Positions 42,313-44,922 of a stretch of 64,000 nucleotides of DNA are shown here, piece after piece. Under the pieces are notes generated by a model, which did no database searches, was not told the origin of the DNA, and was given only the letters and a program-made list of their open reading frames with translations. The DNA is from Nocardioides marmorisolisilvae (GTDB lineage: Bacteria > Actinomycetota > Actinomycetes > Propionibacteriales > Nocardioidaceae). The DNA is taken from contig NZ_RJSG01000002.1 in the NCBI RefSeq assembly GCF_003725775.1, forward strand, positions 1,206,400-1,270,399. Direction: 5' to 3'. Position numbers and translations under genes: made by a program. How positions within the stretch are numbered: position 1 is the first letter of the stretch; each line of letters begins with the position of its first letter.

Positions 42313-43329
42313 CTACGGCTGCAACAGGACCTTGATCGAGCGCCGCTCGTCCATCGCCTTGTAGCCCTCGGCGACCTCCGACAACGGCAGTACCGAGTCG
42401 AACACCAGACCCGGGTTCACTGTTCCGCTGGTGACCAGGTCGAGCAGCTCGGGCAGGTACCGGCGGACCGGCGCGACCCCGCCGGCCAGGCCGACGTTCT
42501 TGGAGAACATCTTCCGGATCGGCAGCTCCACTCCGTGCGGTACGCCGACGAAGCCGACCATCGCGCCCGGGCGCGCGGCCGCGAACGCGAGCTGCATGGC
42601 GTCGTCGGTCCCGACACACTCGAGCACGGCGTCGGCACCGACCCCGCCGGTGATCTCCTTGATCCGCTTGCCGCCCTCGACGCCGCGCTCGGCGACGATG
42701 TGGGTGGCCCCGAACGCGGTGGCGACCTTCTGCCGGCTCTCGTGCCGCGACATCGCGATCACCTTCTCCGCGCCCATCTGGGCCGCGGCCAGGACGCCGC
42801 ACAGCCCGACCGCTCCGTCACCGACCACGACGACGGTGTCGCCCTTCTTGACCCCGGCGGAGACGGCGCAGTGCCACCCGGTCGGGAACACGTCGGAGAG
42901 CGTCAGCAGCGAGGCGATGAGGTCGTCGTCCGGCATCCCGTCGGTCTTGACCATGGAGCCCTCAGCCTGGGTGACCAGGCCGTACTCCCCCTGGCCCCCG
43001 GTGGTGAACCCGCCGTTGACGCAGGCCGAGTGCGCGCCGTTGTCGCAGTGCGGACAGGTGTTGTCGCAGGTGCAGAACGGCACGATGACGAAGTCGCCGG
43101 GCTTGAAGGACCCGACCTCCGCGCCCACTTCCTCGACGACGCCCACCATCTCGTGGCCGATGGTGTCGCCGGGCGTGATGGGGTTCTCCCCCCGGTACGG
43201 CCACAGGTCCGAGCCGCAGATGCAGCCCGCCTTGATCTTGATGACGGCGTCCGTCGGGGCGGTGATCTGCGGCACCGGCCGGTCCTCGAGTCGGATGTCG
43301 CCGGGCGCGTGGATCGTCGTTACTCGCAT
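42313..43329 (-). CDS. Zinc-dependent alcohol dehydrogenase, MDR family
   Basis: The 338-residue enzyme has catalytic-zinc ligands in GCICGSDLWPYRG and TIGHEMVGVV, a structural zinc loop CTCDNTCPHCDNGAHSAC and the nucleotide-binding motif VVGDGAVGLCGVLAA. It probably oxidises a short alcohol with NAD. The first residues MRVTTIHAPGDIRLE fit ATG 43329. The promoter region is shared with the divergent HTH-MurA gene and its dyad, so joint control is possible. Confidence 0.92.
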   Translation of the reverse strand: MRVTTIHAPGDIRLEDRPVPQITAPTDAVIKIKAGCICGSDLWPYRGENPITPGDTIGHEMVGVVEEVGAEVGSFKPGDFVIVPFCTCDNTCPHCDNGAHSACVNGGFTTGGQGEYGLVTQAEGSMVKTDGMPDDDLIASLLTLSDVFPTGWHCAVSAGVKKGDTVVVVGDGAVGLCGVLAAAQMGAEKVIAMSRHESRQKVATAFGATHIVAERGVEGGKRIKEITGGVGADAVLECVGTDDAMQLAFAAARPGAMVGFVGVPHGVELPIRKMFSKNVGLAGGVAPVRRYLPELLDLVTSGTVNPGLVFDSVLPLSEVAEGYKAMDERRSIKVLLQP

Positions 43330-43357: not shown

Positions 43358-43395
43358 TTGGCCGTATCTCATATGTGAGATACCGTCCGACCATG
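43358..43395 (+). promoter_or_regulatory. Promoter with perfect dyad before the HTH-MurA gene
   Basis: TTGGCC (43358-43363) and TACCGT (43381-43386) are spaced by 17 bases, and six bases follow before ATG 43393. The spacer is filled by the perfect inverted repeat GTATCTCA (43364-43371) / TGAGATAC (43376-43383) with centre TATG. The dyad overlaps the -10, so a bound protein would block transcription. The encoded XRE-type HTH is the obvious candidate ligand. Confidence 0.65.
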
Positions 43396-44922
43396 AGCGT
43401 CGATTACCTCGGCCAGATCGGCACCCTGATCCGCAGCGCCCGGCAGCACCGGGGCTGGACCCAGCAGCAGCTCGCGGACGCCCTGAGCACCTCGCAGAGC
43501 GCGGTGAACCGCATCGAGCGCGGGCACCAGAACGTCTCGCTGGAGATGCTCGCCCGCATCGGCGAGGCCCTGGACGAGCAGCTGGTCAGCATCGGCGCCG
43601 GCCCGGTCCACCTCCGGGTGACGGGACCGACGACACTCTCCGGCTCGATCGACGTCAAGACCTCGAAGAACGCCGGCGTCGCGCTGCTCTGCGCGGCGCT
43701 GCTCAACAACGGCCGCACCACCCTGCGCCGGGTGGCCCGGATCGAGGAGGTCAACCGGCTGCTCGAGGTGCTGGCGAGCATGGGCGTGCAGACCCGGTGG
43801 CTGAACGACGACAACGACCTGGAGATCGTCCCGCCGGCGCACATCGACATCGCGGGCATCAATCACGACGCGGCGCGCCGCACGCGCTCGATCATCATGT
43901 TCCTCGGCCCGCTCCTGCACCGCAGCGCCGACTTCGAGCTCCCGTACGCCGGAGGCTGCGACCTCGGCACCCGGACCGTCGAGCCGCACATGACCGCACT
44001 GCGGCCGTTCGGCCTGGAGGTGAAGGCCACCGAGGGCAGCTACCACGCAGTCGTCGCCGAGGACGCGGCGCCGGTCCGGCCGATCGTGCTCACCGAGCGC
44101 GGCGACACCGTCACCGAGAACGCCCTGATGGCTGCGGCCCTGCACGAGGGCACCACGGTGATCCGCAACGCCAGCCCGAACTACATGGTCCAGGACCTGT
44201 GCTTCTTCCTGCAGGAGCTCGGCGTCGAGATCGACGGCGTCGGTACGACCACGCTCACCGTCACCGGCCGCTCGGAGATCGACGTGGACGTCGAGTACTC
44301 CCCGAGCGAGGACCCGATCGAGGCGATGTCGCTGCTGGCCGCCGCGATCGTGACGGGTTCGGAGATCACCATCCGTCGGGTCCCGATCGAGTTCCTGGAG
44401 ATCGAGCTGGCGCTCCTGGAGGAGATGGGCTTCCGCTACGAGCGCTCCGAGGAGTACCAGGCGGCGAACGGCCGGACCCGGCTGGTCGACCTGACCACCC
44501 ACGTCTCGGTGCTGCACTCCCCCATCGACAAGATCCACCCGATGCCGTTCCCCGGTCTCAACATCGACAACCTGCCGTTCTTCGCGGTCATCGCCGCCGT
44601 GGCCAACGGCCAGACGATGCTGCACGACTGGGTCTACGAGAACCGCGCGATCTATCTCACCGAGCTCGGCAAGCTCGGCGGCAAGGTGACGCTCCTGGAC
44701 CCGCACCGGGTGATGATCGACGGGCCCACGCACTGGTCAGGTGCGGAGATCGTGTGCCCGCCCGCGCTGCGTCCGGCCGTGGTGATCCTGCTGGCGATGC
44801 TCGCCTCGAAGGGCACGTCGGTGCTGCGCTCGGTCTACGTGATCAACCGCGGGTACGAGGACCTCGCCGAGCGCCTGAACCAGCTCGGTGCGCGCATCGA
44901 GACGTTCACCGACCTGCGCTGA
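43393..44922 (+). CDS. XRE-type HTH fused to a MurA-like enolpyruvyl transferase
   Basis: The 509-residue protein has an N-terminal helix-turn-helix (about 8-65: LIRSARQHRGWTQQQLADAL, STSQSAVNRIERGHQNVS) joined to a complete MurA/EPSP synthase fold. Catalytic residues of MurA are retained: K92-N93 in TSKNAGVALLCAALL, C189 in AGGCDLGTR with the following arginine, and D392 in FPGLNIDNLPFF. MurA makes UDP-GlcNAc-enolpyruvate, the first committed peptidoglycan precursor. Homologues with this fusion are known in actinobacteria, but whether they are enzymes, regulators or both is open. ATG 43393 is leaderless. Confidence 0.92.
   Translation: MSVDYLGQIGTLIRSARQHRGWTQQQLADALSTSQSAVNRIERGHQNVSLEMLARIGEALDEQLVSIGAGPVHLRVTGPTTLSGSIDVKTSKNAGVALLCAALLNNGRTTLRRVARIEEVNRLLEVLASMGVQTRWLNDDNDLEIVPPAHIDIAGINHDAARRTRSIIMFLGPLLHRSADFELPYAGGCDLGTRTVEPHMTALRPFGLEVKATEGSYHAVVAEDAAPVRPIVLTERGDTVTENALMAAALHEGTTVIRNASPNYMVQDLCFFLQELGVEIDGVGTTTLTVTGRSEIDVDVEYSPSEDPIEAMSLLAAAIVTGSEITIRRVPIEFLEIELALLEEMGFRYERSEEYQAANGRTRLVDLTTHVSVLHSPIDKIHPMPFPGLNIDNLPFFAVIAAVANGQTMLHDWVYENRAIYLTELGKLGGKVTLLDPHRVMIDGPTHWSGAEIVCPPALRPAVVILLAMLASKGTSVLRSVYVINRGYEDLAERLNQLGARIETFTDLR

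Follow-up and report, generated by a model that had tools for sequence, protein, structure and literature searches.

The window, by which we mean the whole stretch of 64,000 nucleotides that was analysed, carries a gene in which a helix-turn-helix (HTH) domain of the XRE type is fused to a complete MurA-like enolpyruvyl transferase. Directly upstream of this gene lies a perfect 8+8 inverted repeat, which we regard as a predicted operator, and close by, on the opposite strand, a zinc-dependent alcohol dehydrogenase gene runs in the divergent direction. All three features had been pointed out in a preliminary description of this DNA and were borne out; their coordinates, together with those of the smaller elements discussed below, are collected in Table 1.

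Table 1. Positions of the fusion gene, its domains, its promoter elements and the divergent neighbor in the window.
Feature	Position	Strand	Remarks
Divergent zinc-dependent alcohol dehydrogenase	42313..43329	-	Neighbor not conserved with the dyad
Weak -35-like TTGGCC, 17 nt from the -10 element	43358..43363	+	Sequence reading; TTG at 16-18 nt in 50/189 orthologues
8+8 perfect dyad GTATCTCA-TATG-TGAGATAC, predicted operator, core TATCT-N8-AGATA	43364..43383	.	Exact
-10 element TACCGT, overlapping the right dyad arm	43381..43386	+	TANNNT in 184/189 orthologous promoters
HTH-MurA fusion gene	43393..44922	+	ATG start, 509 aa, stop codon included
XRE/HipB-like HTH domain, residues 8-66	43414..43590	+	Pfam HTH_3; TIGR03070 (couple_hipB) below cut-off; HipB and ClgR chains in PDB
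Recognition-helix region, residues 33-43 (TSQSAVNRIER)	43489..43521	+	Near-invariant; varies together with the dyad
MurA-like enolpyruvyl transferase domain, residues 71-505	43603..44907	+	Pfam, NCBIfam, AF2 model
Codon of Cys189, equivalent to the catalytic C115 of E. coli MurA	43957..43959	+	Cys in 175/175 aligned fusion rows, duplicates included

The two parts of the protein are readily recognized. Pfam HTH_3 matches residues 13 to 63 (3.7e-14; 52.9 bits, cut-off 23) and EPSP_synthase residues 76 to 495 (1.9e-48), and the NCBIfam model of a MurA subfamily, NF006873, scores 322.4 bits, above its cut-off of 297. Scores fell below the cut-offs of two further models, the stricter curated MurA equivalog TIGR01072 (304.2 against 392.7 bits) and couple_hipB, TIGR03070, a family of type II toxin-antitoxin antitoxins (54.8 against 71.65 bits). 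A search of an anti-phage library gave matches to the HTH part of the fusion protein only. The HTH domain (about residues 8 to 66) is joined directly to the MurA fold, the first strand of which lies within about five residues of it, and residues 33 to 43 are presumably the recognition-helix region, judging from other XRE domains.

The catalytic cysteine, the lysine-asparagine pair and the aspartate were said to be retained, and they are, as C189 (equivalent to C115), K92-N93 (K22-N23) and D392 (D305). Across 175 aligned fusion rows (duplicates kept, L165 left out), the equivalents of K22, N23, R91, C115, R120, D231, D305, R331, L370, R371 and R397 are invariant, and that of H125 is kept in 174. 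At other positions the fusion departs from MurA: V161-S162-V163-G164 reads RGDT (G-D-T in nearly all rows), K160 is replaced by Glu, and a Pro stands opposite D369 in 173 of the 175 rows, so that neither the SVG loop nor D369 is found; S, V, G and D369 are all present in the host's canonical MurA. With the RGDT loop and the missing D369, the nucleotide pocket of the fusion is therefore altered. An AF2 model (mean pLDDT, 80.5) superimposes on the MurA structure 1UAE with a Z score of 41.4 over 409 aligned residues (rmsd, 2.1), and on other MurA structures with Z of about 41 over about 410 residues, indicating a complete two-domain fold; the model is best read as a check of the fold, with pLDDT values below 50 at the linker (65-70), around the cysteine (188-191) and at 383-388. 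Because the TIGR01072 cut-off is missed, although the broader NF006873 is satisfied, we filed the fusion on its sequence as a divergent MurA-type enzyme and not as a canonical MurA.

In the host genome, the canonical MurA (G000:C4:2047925-2049160; L178) has an Asp at the C115 position, where the fusion has Cys. Asp at this position is, we assume, of the fosfomycin-insensitive type, as in mycobacterial MurA. Because of this Cys-Asp difference, the two MurAs of the host are predicted to respond differently, and in fact oppositely, to fosfomycin.

The preliminary description had placed the dyad in the spacer between the -35 and -10 elements of a leaderless promoter, and most of this picture holds. 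The dyad wholly occupies the 17-nt spacer and extends 3 nt into the -10 element, and the ATG at 43393 lies 6 nt past the latter, a distance that fits a promoter that is apparently leaderless in the window. The part that needs correction is the -35 element: since a strict sigma-70 scan reported no promoter at this site, TTGGCC is a weak, local call. With up to three mismatches allowed, the dyad has a single match in the window, where 0.03 would be expected, and a single match in the whole 3.8-Mb genome. A shorter dyad pattern matched one further site in the genome, with three mismatches, between nitroreductase-like and sortase-like frames (names assigned by reading the sequence); we treated it as a chance match and not as a regulon member, and beyond it the searches of this genome with the two dyad forms at up to three mismatches gave no sign of a regulon. 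The host's canonical MurA was likewise rejected as a second target, as the best match in the 400 nt upstream of it (7/12 positions) was no better than the null.

Orthologous loci came from named contigs of Nocardioides, Marmoricola, Kribbella, Aeromicrobium, Mumia, Actinopolymorpha, Streptomyces and others (the best 80 of at least 590) and were supplemented by orthologues from additional actinobacterial genomes, giving 202 usable loci, 192 of them distinct after removal of duplicates; one locus without an N-terminus (L192) was excluded from the comparison of upstream regions. The dyad was scored as ATCTCA-N4-TGAGAT, at 12 positions, in the 90 nt preceding codon 9. At least 9 of the 12 positions were kept in 189 of the 192 distinct upstream regions, and 139 matched exactly; among null windows taken elsewhere in the same loci, 40 of 3,531 reached 9/12 and none was exact. 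The preliminary description had proposed looking for the dyad at other loci and in orthologues and had named orthologues lacking a conserved dyad as one outcome that would count against it; the opposite was found, with a dyad conserved at the orthologues. When the upstream regions were aligned on the dyad (189 rows, with the three below 9/12 dropped), the arm columns carried 1.35 to 2.0 bits and the bases further upstream mostly 0 to 0.4, with one column at 0.75; choosing the best site in each row itself favors conservation, and the null windows serve as the control for this.

The -10 element and the nearby start codon are shared as well. The -10 element overlaps the right arm in nearly all orthologues (Table 1), and an in-frame ATG or GTG lies 4 to 9 nt past it in 183 of 189 (6 to 7 nt in 163), the six exceptions being L143, L146, L147, L153, L171 and L182. 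The dyad sits further upstream in L143, L146, L153 and L150, the last of which scores below 9/12 within the 90 nt and has a 10/12 site 127 nt before codon 9. L143, L146 and L153, all from genus g30 of family f2, have the dyad AACTCAGATCTGATAT starting roughly 80 nt ahead of codon 9, and behind it comes a leader that contains a ribosome-site-like stretch, AAAGGA; judging from these sequences, this genus seems to have exchanged the leaderless arrangement for another. Family f4, which is Actinopolymorpha-like, combines an intact helix with a degenerate left arm (ACATCA, ACACCA, ACCTCA or ACGTCA), and one dyad arm is degraded in L161. Searching the 98 relatives with the exact 12-base pattern returned 69 copies in 67 genomes, of which 64 were just upstream of the fusion and 5 were elsewhere, versus 1 copy (in G069) for a reversed-pattern control. 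Because 64 of the 69 copies are at the fusion, the dyad is not a general motif; it is a near-unique, dedicated site of the fusion, generally with one copy per genome.

Across the 192 regions, the recognition helix hardly departs from TSQSA(V/I)NRIE, and its few variants are informative. Two orthologues have eroded helices, L173 (MDEGAVARVEQ) and L165 (MTEQDIEQIES), and both are without the dyad; the probability that both would fall among the three failures of 192 is 1.6e-4, with L150 counted as a failure and relatedness ignored. L173 keeps the -10 element and the abutting GCGAGATACCGT and has no left arm, and compared with the window protein (P0001) it is 59% identical in the HTH and 81% identical in the MurA domain, a larger HTH deficit than in any other aligned row. 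In L087, whose helix reads TTQSVVNR, both arms are changed symmetrically, to ATCGCA/TGCGAT, and helices of the form QGA[VI]T (L162 in family f9; L171 and L182 in genus g13) pair with AACTCA half-sites, which are also found in three f2 rows with a different helix, TSQSAIHRV. Helix and dyad thus appear to vary together, and the evidence for this is strong but not conclusive, the lineages being few and the tests ignoring relatedness. An RNA element in place of an operator was considered and rejected, because the close start codon in 183 of the 189 promoters would leave the dyad untranscribed; the covariation with the helix is a further argument. The genome of L173 (G042) has the fusion as its sole MurA, with an eroded HTH, the dyad gone and the MurA domain intact, and on these sequence grounds its fusion is probably a natural unregulated version.

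How far the relatives depend on the fusion was judged from the 98 genomes scanned with TIGR01072, a model that was over its cut-off in 10 of 14 known genomes used as a control; a relative was called fusion-only where the fusion was present and no MurA over that cut-off was found. The fusion was found at least in part in 92 of the 98 and a MurA over the cut-off in 51: 50 relatives have both, 42 have the fusion only (completeness is 90% or more in 35 of these), 1 has only the canonical enzyme (75% complete), and the 5 with neither are draft assemblies, 82 to 97% complete. Thirty of the 42 fusion-only genomes were rescanned with PF00275, and because this model cannot separate AroA from canonical MurA (both score 326 to 352 bits in the host genome), an AroA model was added. 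Each of the 30 contains one strong locus besides the fusion, and this locus is over the AroA cut-off in every case; in G032, the third of three PF00275 pieces lies at a contig end and is the tail of an AroA. The rescanned genomes include all 13 of family f2, 99 to 100% complete, a family that by elimination is presumably Propionibacteriaceae. Genomes outside the 98 were additionally scanned with TIGR01072, and three of them (G307, G395 and G477) are also fusion-only, while the four Streptomyces-like f6 genomes tested, together with G105, G351 and G489, have the fusion plus a MurA over the cut-off; G172 is without the fusion and has two MurAs over the cut-off. Since peptidoglycan requires the MurA step, genomes in which the fusion stands alone most likely use it for this step, to judge by their gene content.

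Two further observations concern the MurA-type complement. In G214, which is outside the 98 and 100% complete, the fusion (L208, G214:C1:1261846-1263365) is the only MurA-type locus besides AroA, and it is interrupted by a frameshift, its HTH being eroded and the dyad absent; an error of assembly, gene decay or something more unusual may lie behind this. Seven f4 genomes, G063 (G063:C1:879396-882113), G066, G068, G071, G076, G079 and G081, have two further MurA-type genes besides the fusion, both over the TIGR01072 cut-off and close together on opposite strands.

Taken together, these results lead us to a reading that we consider quite probable, namely, that the fusion is a divergent MurA that works as an enzyme, represses the promoter of its own gene and would thereby act as a "trigger enzyme" of peptidoglycan synthesis. 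Autoregulation through the predicted operator is strongly supported by the sequence comparisons; that the fusion binds DNA, that it represses and does not activate, that it dimerizes and that it is catalytically active are what we infer. Several results count against the overall reading: the fusion misses the TIGR01072 cut-off and is without D369 and the SVG loop, the left arm is degenerate in family f4 beside an intact helix, L161 has a degraded arm and L150 a displaced dyad, and AACTCA half-sites also accompany another helix in f2. A dimer of the fusion would bind the 20-bp palindrome, which spans the spacer and overlaps the -10 element of its own leaderless promoter, and would exclude RNA polymerase once bound; with polymerase excluded, MurA synthesis would be capped and the supply would be self-limiting. 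Binding at an operator in the spacer/-10 position normally blocks polymerase, which is established behavior.

The preliminary description had taken as its simplest reading a metabolite sensor, in which the MurA fold reports to DNA, and had offered as an alternative an enzyme that regulates its own supply. Because the fusion is the only MurA found in 42 of the 98 relatives, the alternative fits better and the sensor reading is not the best one. In its strict form, the latter would make the MurA fold catalytically silent, with the binding of UDP-GlcNAc or PEP gating the HTH and a canonical MurA doing the chemistry; the window host does have such a canonical MurA, and the fusion is without D369 and the SVG nucleotide loop. 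However, the relatives without a MurA over the TIGR01072 cut-off (30 of the 42 rechecked, with the same result in G307, G395 and G477), the invariance of the catalytic Cys, Lys, Asn, Arg and Asp, and the G042 protein, in which the HTH is eroded and the MurA domain kept, the opposite of what a pure sensor predicts, make this very improbable. If the enzyme represses its own gene, it may do so by dosage alone, with an abundant dimer repressing and no ligand modulation, which we place only slightly below an even chance and against which none of our results argues; a single dedicated site per genome as a rule, with no sign of a regulon, is what simple negative feedback would give, although the fusion of the HTH directly onto a fold that closes makes ligand coupling plausible. 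In known MurAs, the first strand lies near the hinge between the two halves of the enzyme, which close on substrate, and it is because the HTH is fused next to this strand that such coupling can be entertained. We therefore also hold, tentatively and with somewhat less confidence, that the repression could be gated by substrate: the sole MurA would read the occupancy of its own active site (by UDP-GlcNAc/PEP or product) via domain closure beside the HTH and set its own transcription accordingly, a task to which the altered nucleotide pocket may be suited.

Other readings separate the dyad from repression by the fusion. XRE domains are common, and the HTH might serve something else while the dyad is bound by another regulator or is a mere promoter feature; the right arm doubles as -10 context, which could by itself conserve GAGATA. 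Against this, the left arm, which is outside the -10 element, is about as conserved as the right, both orthologues with eroded helices are without the dyad (the bases abutting the -10 element persisting in L173 with no left arm), some helix variants track half-site variants, and the dyad has the geometry of a HipB operator, all of which leave the idea with very little probability. It is unlikely, if less so, that the fusion activates its own promoter or mainly controls the alcohol dehydrogenase. The -35 element is weak or absent in most relatives, as at activator-dependent promoters, and the dyad lies 35 to 54 bp upstream of the dehydrogenase start; however, the site overlaps the -10 element, where, as a general rule, binding blocks polymerase, and the dyad persists beside other neighbors. 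A homologue of the dehydrogenase is present in the fetched piece of only 58 of 203 loci, some of the pieces being short, and in a Streptomyces locus (L103) an aconitase-like gene, named from reading its sequence, adjoins the fusion.

PutA, BirA, NadR and the like are trigger enzymes. Like them, the fusion is a metabolic enzyme that has its own DNA-binding domain and is predicted to bind at its own gene: enzyme and HTH are in one protein, and the operator-like dyad at its own promoter covaries with the recognition helix. To our knowledge, no peptidoglycan-precursor enzyme is among the trigger enzymes. With MurA (EC 2.5.1.7; NF006873/TIGR01072) the fusion shares the full-length fold, the core catalytic residues and the status of being the only MurA found in many genomes. 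It differs from the solved MurAs in its N-terminal HTH and is 24 to 28% identical to them in structure alignments, and it differs from the canonical enzyme in its changed nucleotide loop and D369 and its TIGR01072 score below the cut-off. The HTH sequence is like that of HipB, and the site is a palindrome of HipB geometry at the gene's own promoter: the core of the predicted operator has the same length and spacing (TATCY-N8-RGATA) and the same autoregulatory position as the HipB operator, reported as TATCCN8GGATA (PMC3376134, PMC3920265). Unlike HipB, for which four operator sites are described (PMC3376134), the fusion has its HTH attached to an enzyme, falls below the TIGR03070 cut-off and has one site.

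Streptomyces orthologues are 74 to 76% identical to the fusion and keep both the HTH and the dyad. SCO5998 of S. coelicolor is presumed to be an orthologue too, judging from the Streptomyces loci and from the aconitase neighbor (SCO5999 beside SCO5998, as at L103). SCO5998 has been called MurA2, the second of a pair of MurAs, and a DmdR1 site is predicted for it (PLoS Biol 2025, PMC12161575), and its promoter is listed as SigB dependent, with a sequence that differs from the fusion promoters (IJMS 2021, PMC8346170); this published promoter counts against our preferred reading of an autorepressing MurA. Neither an HTH nor this dyad comes up in the passages on SCO5998 that were consulted. In the main text of a study of XRE palindromes (PMC12565409), neither ATCTCA, TGAGAT nor a transferase occurs, and the sole match to "MurA" comes from the name of an author cited there; the motif could be present in the supplementary list of that study. 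Searches of an open-access library returned no recognizable description of an HTH-MurA protein, and as far as that library shows, an enzyme that doubles as an autorepressor is known, and a version built on the peptidoglycan-precursor enzyme MurA is new.

MurA is the first committed enzyme of cell wall synthesis and the target of fosfomycin, and the controls of MurA known to us in Gram-positives are post-translational. ReoM/PrkA and CwlM are separate proteins that act after translation. The fusion, unlike these, carries a DNA-binding domain on MurA itself. ReoM/PrkA in Listeria and CwlM in mycobacteria are reported to control peptidoglycan synthesis at or around MurA (PMC7286690, PMC8959180, PMC8528326, PMC4946905). 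If self-repression by the fusion is true, Propionibacteriales and Streptomyces would have a transcriptional feedback on the step at which peptidoglycan synthesis begins, and if substrate gating is true as well, peptidoglycan flux would be under homeostatic control by the first enzyme itself. Further, if the fusion is the sole enzyme where it stands alone, D369 and the SVG loop would be dispensable, which calls into question the set of residues that a MurA needs.

A draw of 398 genomes across the phylum gave an outline of the spread of the fusion. It returned 34 matches with identities of at least 65%, in families f1, f5, f6, f9, f12 and f15, and 18 others at 31 to 37% identity, the alignments of which start no earlier than query residue 44 and leave out most of the HTH. 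HTH-bearing MurAs in other classes were sought among eight distant matches, and no HTH was seen by eye in the reading frames of the five that were viewed (L210, L211, L213, L214 and L216). In the window, a gene of the isocitrate lyase/PEP mutase superfamily lies two genes from the fusion (window:41540-42301, minus strand), with matches to the prpB and CPEP phosphonomutase models that are below their cut-offs; the presence of a PEP mutase-superfamily gene so near the fusion is probably a coincidence.
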